Below are positions 6,834 through 54,589 of a DNA stretch of 64,000 nt, in pieces. The translations under genes and the position numbers were made by a program. Source of the stretch: Acidobacteriota bacterium (GTDB lineage Bacteria > Acidobacteriota > Thermoanaerobaculia > Gp7-AA8); NCBI GenBank assembly GCA_003223645.1, contig QHVT01000010.1, forward strand, positions 62,001 to 126,000. Direction: 5' to 3'. The notes under the pieces were generated by a model, which was not told the DNA's origin, did no database searches, and worked only from the letters and a program-made list of their open reading frames with translations. Each line of letters opens with the position of its first letter. Position 1 is the stretch's first letter.

Positions 6834-7456
6834 GCGCGCACCCTTTCGAAGAGCTTGCGCACTTTGTCGTGATCCTTCACGCCCGGCGCGCTCTCGACTC
6901 CGCTCGCGACGTCGATCGCGTCCGGCTTCACGATGCGAATCGCTTCGCCCACGTTGTCCGGCGTGATCCCGCCCGCGAGAAAAAACGGCTTCTCGCGATA
7001 GCCGTCGATCAGCTTCCAATCGAACACGCGTCCCGTTCCTCCACCCGAGTCGAACATCACCCACTCCGCCTTCGTCTGAACGGCCGGCAACGCATCGCCC
7101 ACGCGAAAGGCTTTGATCGCGGGCATGCCGATCGCCGCGATGTCATCGTCTGTTTCGTTGCCATGCAACTGCACGACATCGAGTCCAACTTCGTCGACGA
7201 TCCTGCGAACCGTCTCGCGAGACTCGTTCCGAAACACGCCGACACAGTGGAGCGGCGGCCGCTCTCGGCCGCCGGATTCTCGCGAGAGGTCGACGGCCGA
7301 AGCGGCCGCCGCTCCACAGATCTCTGCCGCGTGCTCGGGCTCGACATACCGCGGACTATCGCGCACGAAAATGAACCCGAGGAAATCCGCGCCCTGCTCC
7401 GCGCAGAACAGCGCATCCTTCACATTGGTGATCCCGCAAATCTTGATCAGCGTCAT
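6830..7456 (-). CDS. trpF: Phosphoribosylanthranilate isomerase with in-frame palindromic insertion
   Basis: 208 residues. Catalyses the Amadori rearrangement of phosphoribosylanthranilate in tryptophan synthesis. Seen: the catalytic-Cys start LIKICGITN, the strand [23 protein letters not shown] and the phosphate loop [11 protein letters not shown]. Between helix 2 (HAAEICGA) and the strand VGVF, about 24 residues are encoded by a family F palindrome (positions 7247-7317), making the protein slightly longer than typical TrpF. The insertion keeps the frame and falls in a surface loop of the TIM barrel. Both ends overlap neighbours by ATGA. Confidence 0.95.
7247..7317. repeat. Family F palindromic element inside trpF
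   Basis: GTGGAGCGGCGGCCGCTCTC opens the element and its complement ending GCGGCCGCCGCTCCAC closes it. The centre holds TCTCGCGAGA. The same arms and the same core occur in the intergenic copies at 14687-14757 and 29122-29191. It is fully contained in the trpF frame. Confidence 0.92.
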
Positions 7457-8226: not shown

Positions 8227-9260
8227 TGCGCACCTCCCAGCTCGTTCGAGACCGCGATCAGTTGCTGCAATTTCTCCGACGCGCGTCCGCTGCGCAGCGA
8301 CTCCCTCGCCAGCGCGACGCCATCGCGCATCGTGGGGGCGAGCCCCGCGACGTAGCACGCCGCGCCCGCATTCGCGAGCACGATGTCGCGTCGCGCGCCG
8401 TTCTCGCCGCCGAGGATCGCGCGCGCGATCGATGCGTTCTGCTGGATGTCTCCTCCAGCCAGTCGCTCGAGTGCATGTCGCGACACTCCGATCTCCTCGG
8501 GTGTCACGTCGTACGAGCGCACTTCGCCGTTGCGCACTTCGCAGACATGCGTCGCAGCCGACACCGAAATCTCATCGAGCCCGTCGCGGCTGTGCACGAC
8601 GAGCGCGTGCTCGGCCCCGAGCGCAGAAAGCACTTGCGCGACGACTTCCGTCAGCCGGTCGCTGTAGACACCGAGCACTTGTCGCCGCGCGAACGCGGGA
8701 TTCGTGAGCGGCCCGAGAACATTGAAGATCGTGCGGACGCCGAGCTCGCGTCGTACGGCGGCAACCGCGCTCATCGCCGGATGCAACTTCGGCGCGAAGA
8801 GAAACGCGATGCCGACGCGGCGCAGCACCTGCGACATCCGCGGCGCGTCGAGATCGATATGCACGCCGAGGGCGGAGAGAAGATCGGCGCTGCCGCAGGA
8901 GGACGAGACCGCGCGATTGCCGTGCTTCGCGACGTTCGCGCCCGCGCCCGCGGCCACGAGCGCCGCGATCGTCGAGATGTTGAACGTGCCGCGTCCGTCG
9001 CCACCGGTGCCGCACGTGTCGACGAGTCCATCGCGGATATTGTCAGCATCCAGGTCGAGCGGCGTCACCCGCTCGCGCATCGCCATCGCCGCGCCCGTGA
9101 GCTCGTCCGGCGTCTCGCCTTTCATCCGCAGCGCGACGAGCAGCGCCGACTTCTGCACGTCCGTCGCCTGCCCGTCCATCACCGCGGAGAACACCTCATA
9201 CATCTCGTCGCGCTCGAGATGCTTTCCATCCACGACGCGTTTGATGGCCTGCGCGATCAT
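8223..9260 (-). CDS. trpD: Anthranilate phosphoribosyltransferase
   Basis: 345 residues, typical length. Transfers phosphoribose from PRPP to anthranilate. Seen: the PRPP/Mg site DTCGTGGDGRGTFNIST, the anthranilate-site stretch AKHGNRAVSSSCGSADLL, FLFAPKLHPAM and FNVLGPLTNPA. Start and stop both overlap the flanking trpG and trpC genes by four bases. The start is one to two codons after the trpG terminal codons and begins MIAQAIKRVV. Confidence 0.97.
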   Translation of the reverse strand: MIAQAIKRVVDGKHLERDEMYEVFSAVMDGQATDVQKSALLVALRMKGETPDELTGAAMAMRERVTPLDLDADNIRDGLVDTCGTGGDGRGTFNISTIAALVAAGAGANVAKHGNRAVSSSCGSADLLSALGVHIDLDAPRMSQVLRRVGIAFLFAPKLHPAMSAVAAVRRELGVRTIFNVLGPLTNPAFARRQVLGVYSDRLTEVVAQVLSALGAEHALVVHSRDGLDEISVSAATHVCEVRNGEVRSYDVTPEEIGVSRHALERLAGGDIQQNASIARAILGGENGARRDIVLANAGAACYVAGLAPTMRDGVALARESLRSGRASEKLQQLIAVSNELGGAQ

Positions 9261-9838
9261 TGGATGGCTCCCAAAAAATTGCGGATCACCTGATCGCCGC
9301 CCGGAGTGCCGTACGACTCGGGATGAAACTGAATCCCGAACAGCGGGCGCGCGCGATGCGAGATGGCCATGATCGCGCCATCGTCGCTCTCCGCGTCGAT
9401 CGCGAATTCGTCCGAGAGCGTCGCCGGATCGACGACCAGCGAGTGATAGCGCGCGCTCTGCATCGGGTCCGGACACCCCGCGAACAACCGCTCGCCGCGG
9501 TGATGCACGCCGGTGACTTTTCCATGCACCGGCATCTCCCCGCGCACCACCCGCGCCCCGAACGCCTCGGCGATCGCCTGATGTCCGAGACAAACGCCGA
9601 GCATCGGGATGTCGTTGTTTGCCCTTGCTAAAGCATGGATCAGATCGATGCAACGTCCCGCGCGCGAAGGCGTCCCCGGCCCCGGCGAGATCACCAGCGC
9701 GCGCGGCTTGTCGGCGAGCAGCGCATCGGGATCGAAGTCGTCGTTGCGAATCACGCGCAACCGCTCGCCCGCGAGCCGTTCGATCTGCTGCACCAGGTTG
9801 TAGGTGAAGGAGTCGTAGTTGTCGATGATGGTGATCAT
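9257..9838 (-). CDS. trpG: Anthranilate synthase glutamine amidotransferase subunit
   Basis: 193 residues, a class I glutamine amidotransferase that feeds ammonia to TrpE. Seen: IDNYDSFTYNLVQ at the start, the oxyanion strand ISPGPGTP, the nucleophile loop GVCLGHQAIAEAFG, and the His/Glu of the triad in FGIQFHPES. It could equally be PabA in folate synthesis; the location at the head of the trp genes favours TrpG, and such proteins often serve both. A GAGGAA ribosome site precedes the ATG. No trpE lies upstream; the gene is preceded by about 200 bp of spacer and then the group II intron. Confidence 0.95.
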   Translation of the reverse strand: MITIIDNYDSFTYNLVQQIERLAGERLRVIRNDDFDPDALLADKPRALVISPGPGTPSRAGRCIDLIHALARANNDIPMLGVCLGHQAIAEAFGARVVRGEMPVHGKVTGVHHRGERLFAGCPDPMQSARYHSLVVDPATLSDEFAIDAESDDGAIMAISHRARPLFGIQFHPESYGTPGGDQVIRNFLGAIQ

Positions 9839-10035
9839 GTTCGTTTCCTCGTTCGTTCGTGCGCGCGCGTCAGACCAGGCGGAGACACCATCGCCAGGGA
9901 CGCCAACGAACGATCAACGGGAAACTGAAAGGTGGGAGGCTAGACGTGCCAAAGACACGCGCAGAGCACGTGCGGTCGCTGCGGCGCGTTCTCCTTCGGT
10001 GTCATCACGTCGCGCAGATTACCACAAACCAGGTG

Positions 10036-10779
10036 ATAGAGGTAGGGAGAGACCCGTACGGGTCTCCCCCTCCCTCCGAACCGGACGTGCGGATCTCCCG
10101 CATCCGGCTCTCCAGTTGGTGGTTCCGTTTAGGGCAGACGGAACGTGGAGCTGGTAGCGCGTGAAAGCAGCTGTACACGTCTGAGTTCTTCACCTCGTCG
10201 CCGAGGCCATCCGCATGAGCATCTGGTTCGATCGCGTCGGCTTCAGCCTAGCTATCACTGAAGCTGTCACCGCCGGTTAGCTCTAAGAGCACTCACGTTG
10301 GTCGGTTTTTCCTGTCGCAGATCTTGCCTTCCTCTCATCCACCTTCCTACCTCCCTTTGCTCCACGCCCGTTATGGCGCTTCTTCGCTCGTATGGAGGTT
10401 CTGACTCCCGGCTGCCTTTCAGTCACGCAGCGGGGTATCCCCGATTCACCGCACCTGAATCTTTCTGTCGTTCTGTGTTCAACCACCCCAGTGTCTTCCC
10501 ATGTCCGCTTTCTGTTCGCTCATTTGTTCTCGCGTTCTGGGGCCGTTGCCTTAGGACCGTTTCTAGTCCGCGCCCACAGGCTCTCTCGGCTTCGCCACTC
10601 GCTCGCAGGCTCGCCAAGACACAAGGCCGAATCAACTTTCTCTCGTACGGACCGACAGACTCGCCTTCCGTTGCTCTCCACCCCGCCTTCCGGCGACGCA
10701 GTTACGGTCGGCTTTCAACCAGTTGAGCGTTTGGTTGAGAGTGTTTCCACCTCCTCTTCAGGTGCGCTCTCGGGCGCAC
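10036..10779 (-). mobile_element. ORF-less group II intron
   Basis: Read on the minus strand, the segment starts GTGCGCCCGAGAGCGCACC, a group II 5' end (GUGYG). Near its 3' end it has a domain V hairpin: GAGCCGGATGCGGGAGATCC, then GCACGTCCGGTTC. Domain VI follows as GGGGGAGACCCGTACGGGTC plus TCTCCCTACCTCTAT. The length is about 744 nt. No reverse transcriptase/maturase ORF is present in domain IV, so splicing or mobility would need a maturase supplied elsewhere. The 5' exon is GGCGGCCGCCGCTC and the 3' exon starts CACC. Joining them restores the CTCCAC end of a family F palindrome, which gives the exact boundaries. Small ORFs inside it are not credible proteins. Confidence 0.85.
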
Positions 10780-10868
10780 GAGCGGCGGCCGCCCTCGGCC
10801 GCCGGAGCGCAGCGACAAACCGCCCGGAGCGCTTCCGTTTCGGCGGCCGAGGGCGGCCGCCGCTCCAC
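10780..10868. repeat. Family F palindromic element (5' exon side of the intron)
   Basis: GAGCGGCGGCCGCCCTCGGC and its inverted complement GGGCGGCCGCCGCTCCAC, separated by a second GC-rich inner repeat around CGCTCCGGGCGG. The rmuC stop codon (CTA on the plus strand, 10868-10870) lies at the edge. The outer GTG of the left arm is displaced by the group II intron. Confidence 0.85.
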
Positions 10869-12205
10869 TAGCTTTCGGCTTTGATCTGAACGACGACACC
10901 CGGCTCTTCGCTCTGCATCGTGAGCCGCAGCTTCGATGACTCGAGCGGCACGGCTTCGATTTGTTCGAGCGAATCCATCCCTTTGCCGACGCCCGCGAGC
11001 TGCTGCAGCTCTTCGCCTTTCGGCCAGAGGCGCGAGTCGATCGAACGAATGGTCTCGTTGTACTTCTCGACCGTTTTGCCGAGGCGCGCGCCGACGTCGC
11101 GGAGGTGATCCATGACCTTCACGAAACGATTGAACAGATCGACTGCCGCGTCGTGCATCCGCTTCGCGTTCTCCTCGGTCTTCTCCGCTTTCCAACTCGC
11201 GGCGACCGCGCGCAAGAGAGGCAGGAGCACGGTCGGCGATGCGAGGAAAATTTTTCGCTCGGCCGCGTATTCGAGCAGCGTGAGATCGGCCGCGAGCGCG
11301 GCGGCGAGGAAGTGCTCGCCCGGGATGAACATGACGGCGAAGTCGAGCGTCTCGCCGATGTTCGATTGATAGTCGCGCTTCGCCAACGCGTCGATGTGGC
11401 GCCGTAAATTCTTCGCGTGCTGCTGTAGCAGCGCGGCTTTGCGCGTCTCGTCGCTCTCATTGCACGCGGCGATGTATTCGGAGAGCGATGCCTTCGCGTC
11501 GATCGCGATTACGCGCTGATTCGGCAGATTGATGACGATGTCGGGACGGAGGCGCCGTCCGTCGTCCGAGAAAAAGGTGTGCTGCGAGTCGAAGTCGCGG
11601 CAGTACTCGCTCATCCCAGCGAGCTCGATGCAGCGCTTGAGCGACATCTCGCCCCATGATCCCTGCACCGTCGGCGACTGCAGCGCGTTCGCGAGCCGCG
11701 CCGCTTCGCGCGACGCCTGCTCCTGCGTCGCCAGCAGCGTGCGGATCTGCTCCTGCAGTCCGCCGTAGCCGATCGCGCGCTCCTGCTCGCTCTTCTGCAC
11801 CTCGCCGCGATAGGCGTCGAGCATCTCGCGCACCGGCATGAGCATCGAGTCGAGCGTCCCGCCCACCTGCGTCTTGTTCGCGCTGACGAGCGACTCGCTC
11901 ACGTTCTTGAAGGCCTTCTGCGCGAGCGCCGTGAACGTGTCTTCGACTTTTTGCAAATTGGAGAAGTGACTCTCCGCCACCGCGCGCGCCTGCTGCGCTT
12001 CTTCGAGACGCTGCTGCATCTCGGCGCGCAACTTCTCGCTGCGCTCGCGCTCCTGCTTCGCGGAGTCGCGCTCAACGATTACTCGATCGCGCTCCGAGCG
12101 GGCCCGCTGCGCTTCCGCGCTCTTTCTCGCGCTCCCGACCATCCACCCTGCGATCGCGCCGAGCATCAACGCGATCACGACGAGAAACAACGCTGTGATC
12201 GTCAT
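10868..12205 (-). CDS. rmuC: DNA recombination protein RmuC homologue
   Basis: 445 residues. RmuC proteins limit recombination at inverted repeats and carry a PD-(D/E)XK-like nuclease fold. An N-terminal membrane anchor (residues 3-24, ITALFLVVIALMLGAIAGW) is followed by a long Glu/Arg/Gln coiled coil (about 28-80). The RmuC core runs from about residue 130 to 400, with VQGSWGEMSLKRCIELAGM, RPDIVINLPNQRVIAIDAK and FIPGEHFLAAAL. It is notable that a putative inverted-repeat-processing protein lies next to a hairpin element in a hairpin-rich chromosome. The gene stands alone on the minus strand. Confidence 0.93.
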   Translation of the reverse strand: MTITALFLVVIALMLGAIAGWMVGSARKSAEAQRARSERDRVIVERDSAKQERERSEKLRAEMQQRLEEAQQARAVAESHFSNLQKVEDTFTALAQKAFKNVSESLVSANKTQVGGTLDSMLMPVREMLDAYRGEVQKSEQERAIGYGGLQEQIRTLLATQEQASREAARLANALQSPTVQGSWGEMSLKRCIELAGMSEYCRDFDSQHTFFSDDGRRLRPDIVINLPNQRVIAIDAKASLSEYIAACNESDETRKAALLQQHAKNLRRHIDALAKRDYQSNIGETLDFAVMFIPGEHFLAAALAADLTLLEYAAERKIFLASPTVLLPLLRAVAASWKAEKTEENAKRMHDAAVDLFNRFVKVMDHLRDVGARLGKTVEKYNETIRSIDSRLWPKGEELQQLAGVGKGMDSLEQIEAVPLESSKLRLTMQSEEPGVVVQIKAES

Positions 12206-14601: not shown

Positions 14602-14830
14602 TAGTTTATCCCGCGCTTTCAGTTTATCCCGCGCGCAGACGCGGGATCTCCAGTGATCCCGCAAGTTTCTCTTCAACGACGAGTCTGTGGAGCGGCGGCC
14701 GCCCTCGGCCGCCGGATTCTCGCGAGAGATCGGCGGCCGAGGCGGCCGCCGCTCCACCAGATTCATTCAAGTGGCAACTGCAACGCCGGTGTCACCGGAG
14801 ATCCCGCGTCTGCGCGCGGGATAAACTGAA
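14602..14830. repeat. Nested palindromes: family H enclosing family F
   Basis: The outer arms TCCCGCGCGCAGACGCGGGA (14628-14647) and its complement at 14800-14822 are family H. Inside them lies a complete family F element at 14687-14757 with the TCTCGCGAGA core. The right outer arm is translated as the C-terminus of Lgt. This fills the whole aroC-lgt gap. Confidence 0.88.
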
Positions 14831-29083: not shown

Positions 29084-29226
29084 GTGGAGCGGTGGGCTCT
29101 CAGCCCACCGCTTCCTTTCGTGTGGAGCGGCGCCCGCTTCGGGCGCCGGGATCTCGCGAGAGCCCGGCGGCCGAAGCGGCCGCCGCTCCACTAAACAAAC
29201 GGCGGGCTAAAGCCCGCCGCTCCACA
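29084..29226. repeat. Compound palindromes: family K, family F, family K
   Basis: GTGGAGCGGTGGGCTCTCAG with CCCACCGC, then a complete family F element at 29122-29191 (core TCTCGCGAGA), then GGCGGGCTAAAGCCCGCCGC. Between the convergent exported-protein gene and pnp these may act as bidirectional terminators. Confidence 0.82.
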
Positions 29227-38529: not shown

Positions 38530-38691
38530 AAAGTCAAAAGGCGTTTGCACGATCAGTTCGAACAGCAACGGACCACGCCAAGACTGGGTTGTCTGCCCGT
38601 ACCGTATCTTTGATCCGAATCTCATCGACTCGGTCGCGGCACGGCTCTACGGCGTCACGAACGCAGACTCTCTCCACACCGTGGCAGCCAC

Positions 38692-39164
38692 GATTGATAT
38701 CACCCCATATCAATCACGCGTCCGCCGCACCCGTCCGAGCAGTCGCCGAGGCCACGATTGATATGGCCCCATATCAATCGCACGGTCGCCGTGTCCACGA
38801 TTGATATCACCCCATATCAATCGCACGTCCCCCGCACCCGTTCGTGCGCTCGCCGAGGCCACGATTGATATGGCCCGATATCAATCACAGGCTCGCCGAG
38901 GTCACGATTGATATGACCCCATATCAATCACACGTCCCCCGCACCCGTTCGTGAGGTCGCCGGGGTCACGATTGATATGGCCCCATATCAATCACGGGCT
39001 CGCCGGGGTCACGATTGATATGACCCCATATCAATCACACGTCCGCCGAACCCGTTCGTGAGGTCGCCGGGGTCACGATTGATATGGCTCCATATCAATC
39101 GCACCTTCGCCGCACGCGTCCGGGCGGTCGACGAGGGAAGGATCGATGTCACTCCGTCTCCCTC
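38692..39164. repeat. Regular array of 24-bp palindromes (107-bp super-period)
   Basis: Eight units GATTGATAT-N6-ATATCAATC start at 38692, 38756, 38799, 38863, 38906, 38970, 39013 and 39077. The steps are 64, 43, 64, 43, 64, 43 and 64 bp. The odd units have centres CACCCC or GACCCC; the even ones GGCCCC, GGCCCG or GGCTCC. Long spacers contain CCGCACCCGTTCGTG-like text, short ones GGCTCGCCGGGGTCAC. A decayed ninth unit is visible at 39141. The 107-bp period is not a multiple of three and the frames contain stops, so it is not coding. No cas or transposase genes are near. Confidence 0.93.
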
Positions 39165-39193
39165 CTGGCTCCGGGGCCTGCATAATCAGGCCA

Positions 39194-53398: not shown

Positions 53399-54589
53399 TC
53401 AACGCTCCCTGAGCGCCAACGCCACCGGAATCCGCGCCGCGCGAATCGCAGGGAAGAATCCGCCGACGATTCCGATGAACAGCGCGTAAATGATCGCGCC
53501 GAACATCAATGCGGGCGTGACCTGGAACGCGAACGCGACCTGGCTGAACGTCTGCCAGTTCATCGTCGCGCTGCGGTAGCCGTCGAAGGCGAGATACGCG
53601 CCTAACGAGCCGATGATGCCGCCTAACAGGGCGAGGACGAGCGCTTCGGCCATGACGGAGATCATAACGGCGCCGCCGCCGAAGCCGAGGGCTTCGAGAG
53701 TGGCGATATCGCGGGAGCGCGCGGAGACGGCGGTGTACATCGTGTTGAGCGCGCCGAAGATTGCGCCGAGACCCATCAAGCTGCAGACGATGAATGCGAG
53801 TCCGGTGACGAGGAGGCGCATGGTGCGCGACTGCGCGGCGTAGTAGTCGGTCTCGCGCTCGATCTTCAGGTTCGTGCGCGGATCGGAGGTTAATGTGTCC
53901 TTGAACTGCTGGAAGCTGCCCGCCGACGCGAGCCGCACGAGCACGGTTTGATACGAGCTGCCGCGATGATATGCGGGCGCGAGCACGGCGGCGTCCGCCC
54001 ACACTTCCGACTCCGCGATACCGCCTTTTCCTTCAAAAATGCCAACGACTTTCCAGCGCGTCTGTCCGAACTGCATTTCCGTTCCGACTTCCGTGCTCTT
54101 GAACTGCGTCTGCGCGGAGCGGCCGACGATCACTTCGTTCGTACCCCACGCGAACATCTTTCCCTCGACGATCTTGATCTCCGGCCGCACGGCGAACGCT
54201 TCCTCGCGCACGCCGCGCATCGGCACGTTCGCTTCCGTGTTCGTCGAGCGCTTCGGCAGATCGACGAGCACGAACAGCTCCGGCGACGCGAGCAGTTTGC
54301 CGTCGGCACCGCGCGCGACGCGCGGATCGTTGCGCACGATCTCGACATCGTCGCGCGAGAGCACGCTCGTCATCTCGCTGTCCGCTCCGCCGCGCAAAAC
54401 GATCGCCGTGTCGGGCGATCCGGCCGCGATCATCACGTGACGGAATCCTTCGCCGATCGAGAGCACACCGACGAGCACCGCGACGACGCCCGCGACGCCG
54501 AAGATTGCGGCAGCCGAAGATCCGCGTCGCGCGGGAAGCGTGCGCAGGTTGAATCCGATGAGCGCTGCGAGTTGTCTGAACCAGTTCAT
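53399..54589 (-). CDS. ABC transporter permease (MacB/FtsX type), second permease
   Basis: 396 residues. MacB-like: an N-terminal span (SSAAAIFGVAGVVAVLVGVL, about 25-45), a large periplasmic domain, and three C-terminal spans (about 255-280, 300-330 and 355-385) with LVTGLAFIVCSLMGLGAIFG and SARSRDIATLEALGFGGGAV. Last gene of the adaptor-ATPase-permease-permease operon. Its start shares one base with the end of the previous permease (TAATG). Substrate unknown. Confidence 0.88.
   Translation of the reverse strand: MNWFRQLAALIGFNLRTLPARRGSSAAAIFGVAGVVAVLVGVLSIGEGFRHVMIAAGSPDTAIVLRGGADSEMTSVLSRDDVEIVRNDPRVARGADGKLLASPELFVLVDLPKRSTNTEANVPMRGVREEAFAVRPEIKIVEGKMFAWGTNEVIVGRSAQTQFKSTEVGTEMQFGQTRWKVVGIFEGKGGIAESEVWADAAVLAPAYHRGSSYQTVLVRLASAGSFQQFKDTLTSDPRTNLKIERETDYYAAQSRTMRLLVTGLAFIVCSLMGLGAIFGALNTMYTAVSARSRDIATLEALGFGGGAVMISVMAEALVLALLGGIIGSLGAYLAFDGYRSATMNWQTFSQVAFAFQVTPALMFGAIIYALFIGIVGGFFPAIRAARIPVALALRER

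Follow-up and report, generated by a model that had tools for sequence, protein, structure and literature searches.

An ORF-less group II intron within a REPIN of an acidobacterial genome, and covariation of EBS1 with palindromic target sites among its relatives

A complete ORF-less group II intron of 744 nt is located on the minus strand (10036-10779) of the window, the 64,000-nt stretch analyzed here (contig QHVT01000010.1, positions 62,001 to 126,000 of the forward strand; assembly GCA_003223645.1 of an Acidobacteriota bacterium). It interrupts a palindromic element, a REPIN, exactly; among its relatives, EBS1 covaries with the end of the 5' exon, and insertion sites lie preferentially just past a DNA hairpin. 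These features are probably those of a mobile IIC-like intron that lost its maturase gene, whose RNP reads a hairpin together with EBS1, whose lineage re-tunes EBS1, and which was moved in trans.

Structure of the Intron

Intron nt n corresponds to window position 10780-n. The intron starts with GTGCG at 10779, in agreement with the GTGYG start of group II introns, and ends with CCTACCTCTAT at 10036; its relatives could be aligned from the same 5' end. The Rfam model RF00029, which represents domains V and VI, matched positions 10036-10112(-) with 57.2 bits (gathering score 40, E 1.4e-8). Domain V, which has an AGC triad, was delimited at 10078-10111(-) by the Rfam alignment and the sequence, and domain VI at 10038-10076(-) by the Rfam alignment, the fold, and the sequence. 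Judged by its position, nt 737 (window 10043), the eighth from the intron 3' end, is the candidate bulged branch adenosine.

Domains I (nt 1-340; 10440-10779(-)), II (nt 341-377; 10403-10439(-)), and III (nt 381-431; 10349-10399(-)) were derived with RNAalifold from 28 sequences, which we picked from those with placed ends. The consensus fold of the relatives' 5' parts contained many two-sided changes in these three domains, and some domain I pairs were broken in up to nine of the 28 rows. The domain IV region (approximate boundaries nt 433-665; 10115-10347(-)) contains no reverse transcriptase (RT) ORF. Folding of the single sequence yielded -295.2 kcal/mol (z -3.05), a value that none of 20 shuffled sequences reached. 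The preliminary description of this DNA had recognized an ORF-less group II intron from the 5' GTGCG and domains V and VI, and had proposed the domain V model search and the folding of the 744 nt whose results are given above; the consensus structure of domains I-III and the absence of an RT gene confirm that 10036-10779(-) is a complete intron of this kind. Neither of the two outcomes named there as contrary evidence, a lack of domain I-IV structure or an occurrence of the same 744 bp elsewhere with different ends, was found: domains I-III are structured, and the full 744 bp occur once in the genome.

The Insertion Site is a REPIN

When position 10035 is joined to 10780, a 92-nt palindrome of the form GTGGAG...CTCCAC with 28-bp perfect terminal repeats is regained, in which no nucleotide is duplicated and none is missing compared to the symmetrical form. 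The 5' exon comprises the palindrome up to CTC (10780-10868(-), 89 of its 92 nt) and contains a hairpin with a 9-bp stem located 3 nt from the insertion site. The last three nucleotides of the REPIN (CAC, 10033-10035(-)) follow the intron on its 3' side, the C at 10035 being assigned as IBS3 by position only. It had been proposed that excision rejoins GCCGCTC with CACC to form a normal element end, as is indeed the case, and that the intron had entered a hairpin element, which is borne out both by the regained palindrome and by relatives at the equivalent spot of other palindromes. The setting is intergenic, between rmuC (10868-12205(-); PF02646, 286.6 bits), whose stop codon shares 1 nt with the REPIN, and a downstream gene for a class-I glutamine amidotransferase (9257-9838(-); PF00117, 181.9 bits), which is probably trpG as inferred from its neighbors.

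Uninterrupted elements of the pattern GTGGAGCGGC-N(40-70)-GCCGCTCCAC are present in 198 copies in the genome assembly (6.38 Mb in 51 contigs, 96.67% complete), compared to none for a reversed-pattern control. The elements are organized as GTGGAG-hairpin-spacer-hairpin-CTCCAC. The only Y1_Tnp match of the genome is a RAYT (NF047646, 103.5 bits; cut-off 80), and element copies lie on both sides of its gene, at C4:52935-53004 and from positions 53500, 53624, and 53748; one copy overlaps the end of the RAYT ORF. Published marks of REPs are GT(A/G)G heads and rayt genes situated between inverted REPs (PMC2817692), and GTAG-headed families have been described (PMC3733652). Since the GT(A/G)G head, the inverted hairpins, and the RAYT gene flanked by copies match these marks, the 92-nt palindromic element is a REPIN. 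It resembles known REPIN/RAYT systems in these features and in its more than 100 copies, and differs from them in that it hosts the intron. In the window, uninterrupted copies are found at 7247-7317, 14687-14757, and 29122-29191. The first of these lies inside trpF (PRAI; PF00697, 166.8 bits), whose reading frame stays open through the REPIN, and about residues 47-70 are therefore repeat-encoded. Another repetitive region of the window (38689-39176) gave four overlapping 210-nt matches spaced by 107, 107, and 64 nt, corresponding to a head-to-tail repeat of approximately 107 nt.

An exact search with the ends and the core of the element found no copy at the same intergenic place in G017 (same genus), G009, G012, and G008. 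The first three genomes have a short spacer without an intron at this place, and the spacer in G008 is longer. No Y1 transposase match was obtained in G017. Because REPs are thought to be mobilized by RAYTs (PMC2817692, PMC3733652), a REPIN that already carried the intron could also have been brought here by the RAYT, in which case the site would not have been chosen by the intron, and the lack of an element at this place in the four other genomes would fit such an event. However, the assembly holds no second REPIN with an intron, and relatives of the intron occupy the equivalent position of unrelated palindromes, a pattern that is explained by targeting through the intron but not by RAYT activity. 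We therefore regard this scenario as very improbable.

Other Intron Copies and RTs in the Assembly

A six-frame RVT_1 search of the genome found no RT gene in the intron and matched only on contigs C42, C22, and C37. Possible RT remnants in the intron were sought by tblastn with four group II RTs, which gave only chance-level matches (best E 0.69). The RTs on C42, C22, and C37 were considered as cognate maturases and rejected, as they are just 36-46% identical to the RTs of the intron family (see below); a fourth maturase fragment of this genome is 28-33% identical to them. The maturase search suggested earlier thus yielded no close RT in the assembly. The search for further intron copies, also suggested, was successful in part: related copies exist but are partial or diverged (one match is the domain VI hairpin matching itself), and only one full intron copy sits in a REPIN. 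Among the related copies, C3a has lost its EBS1 arm, and C3a, C3b, and C4 are either incomplete or degraded. Since eight of the 13 domain V matches in the assembly are located at most 100 nt from a contig end, copies may be missing and the assembly may hide the source of an RT. With no RT in the intron and only distant RTs detected in the genome, the RT of a relative would have to act, or to have acted, in trans.

Two further intron contexts were observed in this genome. On contig C3 (approximately 65650-67700), two degraded relatives of the window intron, one of them without the EBS1 arm, are situated among small genes. Two of the neighbors scored as a TIR-domain protein of the CAP12/Pycsar type (92 bits) and as an FRG-domain protein (41.9 bits), and a PIN-like ORF remained slightly below the Pfam cut-off. 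In its appearance, the stretch resembles an array of cassettes carrying defence-type genes. Contig ends (C17, C31, C47, C20, and C26) harbor another family of group II introns. Four of these five introns have the 3' exon start CAGATCGC in common, and three of the four share a repeat ending in GCCGTGCAGCTTAGGC that appears attC-like by eye; the ORF-less intron on C3 adjoins the same GCCGTGCAGCTTAGGC repeat.

The lack of a close RT in the assembly, the degraded state of the three related copies, and an intergenic location at which splicing would not be needed are also compatible with a dead relic, which would have inserted at a time when an RT was available and would since have lost both splicing and mobility. 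Against this speak the intact domains with a candidate branch adenosine, the full EBS1-IBS1 match of five base pairs, the two ORF-less relatives in other genomes that are likewise complete and matched to their sites, and the fact that the assembly breaks at introns. On balance, the relic is the less probable interpretation, albeit one with appreciable weight, and a mobile intron without its own maturase is preferred here.

Relatives in Other Genomes

Matches to the intron were found in 5 of the 18 genomes searched from the same bacterial family (its own genome included) and in 7 of 148 genomes of the class, with at most four candidates scored per genome. Three relatives carry an RT of 445-446 amino acids in domain IV, which scored above the TIGR04416 cut-off and contains RVT_1 and GIIM as its only Pfam domains. 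Two further relatives are ORF-less and have lengths of 735 and 739 nt (G008 and G013). Although these two genomes belong to different genera, their ORF-less introns share 83% identity over 737 nt, domain IV included, and reside at different sites with different, matched EBS1 sequences. The closest relative of the window intron is that of G008 (90% identity over nt 1-452 and 85% over nt 613-744); the window intron has a domain IV of its own.

A scan of named genomes by RT alignment recovered 84 relatives among 117 candidate stretches, and the best 80 of these 84 are distributed over many phyla; the 5' end was located for 40 of these 80. Mini-introns of 717-813 nt from which most of the RT is missing were observed in other bacteria at five loci (L175, L180, L181, L184, and L185). 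The genomes carrying L180 and L175 also contain full-length relatives (L149 and L124) with a different EBS1 and at a different hairpin.

EBS1 Follows the 5' Exon

EBS1 of the window intron is GAGCG (nt 176-180; 10600-10604(-)) in a terminal loop of domain I, and forms five of five pairs with IBS1 (CGCTC; 10780-10784(-)), which belongs to the right REPIN arm. This assignment rests on covariation with the 5' exon end, where the pairing extends over 5-6 nt. Forty-three loci were listed for the pairing count, of which 40 were counted; L113, L124, and L185 have less than 6 nt of 5' exon, and G012, G013b, and G013c were left out as duplicates of L106-L108. Watson-Crick pairs are formed at 167 of the 200 EBS1-IBS1 positions, compared to a mean of 70.5 (sd 7.8, maximum 103) in 20,000 shuffles of the exons among the introns and to 92 for the next-best intron window against the exon end. 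The count includes L147 and L181, whose 5' end was misplaced, as well as the doubtful L141, and these three loci lower the score. Among 35 distinct EBS1/IBS1 combinations, 15 pair at five of five positions, 14 at four, and six at three or fewer; weak pairing of the last kind includes L106 (identical to G012), L141, and L184.

Since related introns are not independent, sister pairs were compared as well; G012, G013b, G013c, L141, L147, and L181 were left out of this comparison, as were rows for which no partner reached 60% identity. In 18 non-overlapping nearest pairs, 34 EBS1 differences were counted, of which 25 are paired on both sides, nine on one side, and none on neither. The divergence of EBS1 amounts to 0.38 per site versus 0.18 elsewhere. 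The window intron and its G008 relative illustrate this pattern, as their EBS1 sequences (GAGCG and TAGCC) differ at two positions that are matched by two differences between the exons (CGCTC and GGCTA). No EBS2 was found: against exon offsets 5-12, no intron window scored above 86 of 175 positions, compared to 154 for EBS1 in the same 35 rows. The 3' exon begins with C at 25 of 35 loci, and no covarying intron column that could represent EBS3 was detected across the aligned loci.

Hairpins Upstream of the Insertion Sites

For 41 insertion flanks the presence of an upstream hairpin was compared with 680 random flank sites taken from 34 loci. These flanks comprise 34 of the loci with placed 5' ends, the window, G008, G013a, and four introns of G007; L141 was left out, as were loci at which the upstream DNA was too short. 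Hairpins with a stem of 6 bp or more and a loop of up to 12 nt, located at most 8 nt from the insertion, are present in 30 of the 41 flanks but in only 30 of the 680 controls, and those with a stem of 5 bp or more in 35 flanks and 67 controls. With loops of up to 70 nt allowed, 32 flanks score, versus 115 of the controls, which thus also score often; in 24 of these 32 the insertion lies 2-4 nt past the stem. A stem-loop just upstream of the insertion is a feature of group IIC introns. In addition, 15 of the 41 flanks end in CTA, a trinucleotide that makes up 0.5% of flank trinucleotides, and of the CTA flanks with a known 3' exon nine of ten continue with C, which yields the complement of a GTAG REP head. 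As EBS1 starts with UAG in nearly all of these introns, a single inherited preference may account for this.

The repeat status of the occupied hairpins varies. The hairpin type that is occupied in G007 and by two of the three introns of G013 has 82 copies in the former genome and 87 in the latter, and 0-3 copies in G000, G017, and G008. G012 contains 52 copies of a close type, which is not the exact hairpin occupied in this genome; of the latter, six further near-copies lie inside its 8.3-kb locus. The target in G008 is at best low-copy, with seven matches (up to two mismatches, one match being the occupied site) against one for a reversed control. At the distant loci, a second copy of the hairpin with up to two mismatches was detected at only nine loci within the short DNA fetched. 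The earlier suggestion that the dispersed hairpins are a supply of landing sites is supported, beyond this one intron, by the EBS1 sequences of relatives, which match their own palindromes, and by the many copies of the G007 and G013 hairpins.

These data also bear on the question whether any hairpin with a suitable 5-nt tail would be accepted, the REPIN identity being incidental. Such generic targeting would agree with the known terminator habit of group IIC introns (PMC7923331, PMC8919778, PMC4424553), with the second copy seen at only nine of the distant loci, for which short DNA was fetched, and with the at best low-copy hairpin of G008. It is at odds with the occupied type being a repeat of 82-198 copies in the window genome, G007, and G013, with an EBS1 that follows the palindrome arm, and with the frequent CTA followed by C, although the last point is weakened by the inherited UAG. 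Generic targeting is therefore considered possible but rather unlikely, and recognition of a repeated palindrome by a re-tuned EBS1 remains the preferred reading.

Relation to Group IIC and Other Known Systems

Like the stem-loop, the short EBS1-IBS1 pairing without EBS2-IBS2 conforms to group IIC, the length being 5-6 bp here while 3-4 bp are quoted for IIC. The three RTs of the family lack an endonuclease domain according to Pfam, as do IIC RTs, and the window intron has no RT. The family RT scored highest with 7uim (220 bits), followed by GsI-IIC 6ar1 (209), 6me0 (150), and LtrA 5g2x (126), in a reference set of solved structures that is without other bacterial classes. A CGC triad in domain V marks group IIC, and the window intron has AGC. 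The triad is described as AGC, with CGC occurring in some introns (PMC4424553). The targeting is group IIC-like, a term that here names the targeting style and not the formal class. Accordingly, the initial assignment to group IIC introns at terminator-like hairpins holds for the style of targeting and the hairpin; in view of the AGC triad and of a reference set of RT structures without other bacterial classes, membership in IIC is not established, and the target is a RAYT-associated REPIN in which the 5' exon ends with GCCGCTC and has no T-run as intrinsic terminators do.

Established insertion sites of group IIC introns are attC sites and positions after terminators (PMC4424553, PMC7923331, PMC8919778), and other inverted repeats have also been reported (PMC7923331); by cryo-EM, a IIC intron has been visualized together with a DNA stem-loop (PMC10190682). 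With introns inserted after terminators (B.h.I1, PMC4424553; the E.r. intron, PMC10190682) the present lineage shares the 5' exon stem-loop, a short EBS1-IBS1 pairing, the lack of a detectable EBS2, and, in the relatives, an RT without a detected endonuclease domain that is nearest to IIC RTs among the solved structures. It differs in the dispersed REPIN target without a T-run, the rapid change of EBS1 with the site, the ORF-less form, the AGC triad, and a pairing of 5-6 nt instead of 3-4 (PMC7923331) or 4+1 (PMC10190682). By description, bacterial g6, U1, and U2 introns are also similar, being placed close to class C by the RT tree and frequently lying just past terminators (PMC8919778). The group IIC-attC introns of integrons are likewise specialized on one class of palindromic repeats, but attC has the consensus TTGT/T (PMC7923331), whereas the palindrome here varies from genome to genome.

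Group II introns at REPs are known from Pseudomonas putida KT2440 (two of nine in a 2006 table), the passage on this table giving the count only, with nothing on EBS1, RAYTs, or ORF-less forms (PMC1525189). Passages of a study on IS481 in REPINs (PMC11708052) and of a meeting report (PMC2936281) make no link between group II introns and REPs. Tuning of EBS1 to REPs was not reported in the literature matches listed by our search, which leaves out most subscription literature. Insertion of group IIC introns at terminators and attC sites and of P. putida introns in REPs is thus known already, and the case described here is a variant of these.

Proposed Mechanism and Implications

The proposed mobile intron, derived from a IIC-like lineage by loss of the maturase gene, would as an RNP recognize a short DNA hairpin, 5-6 nt of EBS1-IBS1 pairing, and probably also a single base of the 3' exon, in most cases C, and would reverse-splice mostly 2-4 nt past the stem. 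The hairpin used here is the right-hand unit of a REPIN that was presumably spread by RAYT to about 200 places, in principle with two sites each, and this abundance may have made the site available. By changing EBS1, the lineage would re-tune to the palindromes that it meets. The RT-less copy must, on this mechanism, have been moved, and presumably would be spliced, by the RT of a relative.

A more far-reaching interpretation, for and against which we see about equal chances, is that the intron lineage is specialized on REPs and REPINs, with EBS1 being rewritten for each host's RAYT-driven repeat family and entry often occurring at the GTAG/GTGG head (CTA^C), and that it gives rise to derivatives without an RT, which would persist as non-autonomous elements and pass from one genus to another. 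ORF-less introns are described as rare in bacteria, and a related protein is nearly always present alongside them (PMC4424553); the introns described here would be an example from bacteria in which introns without an RT seem to spread. If this interpretation is true, the intron, itself a selfish element, relies on two further ones, the RT of a relative and the RAYT. It appears that one selfish DNA furnishes the sites at which another lands, and the EBS1/hairpin pairs found in nature are a set for the study of hairpin-dependent introns. They also form a natural series of compensatory changes in which the RNA guide of a retroelement evolves after the presumably harmless sites of another selfish element, which would explain how mobile introns can persist without hitting genes.
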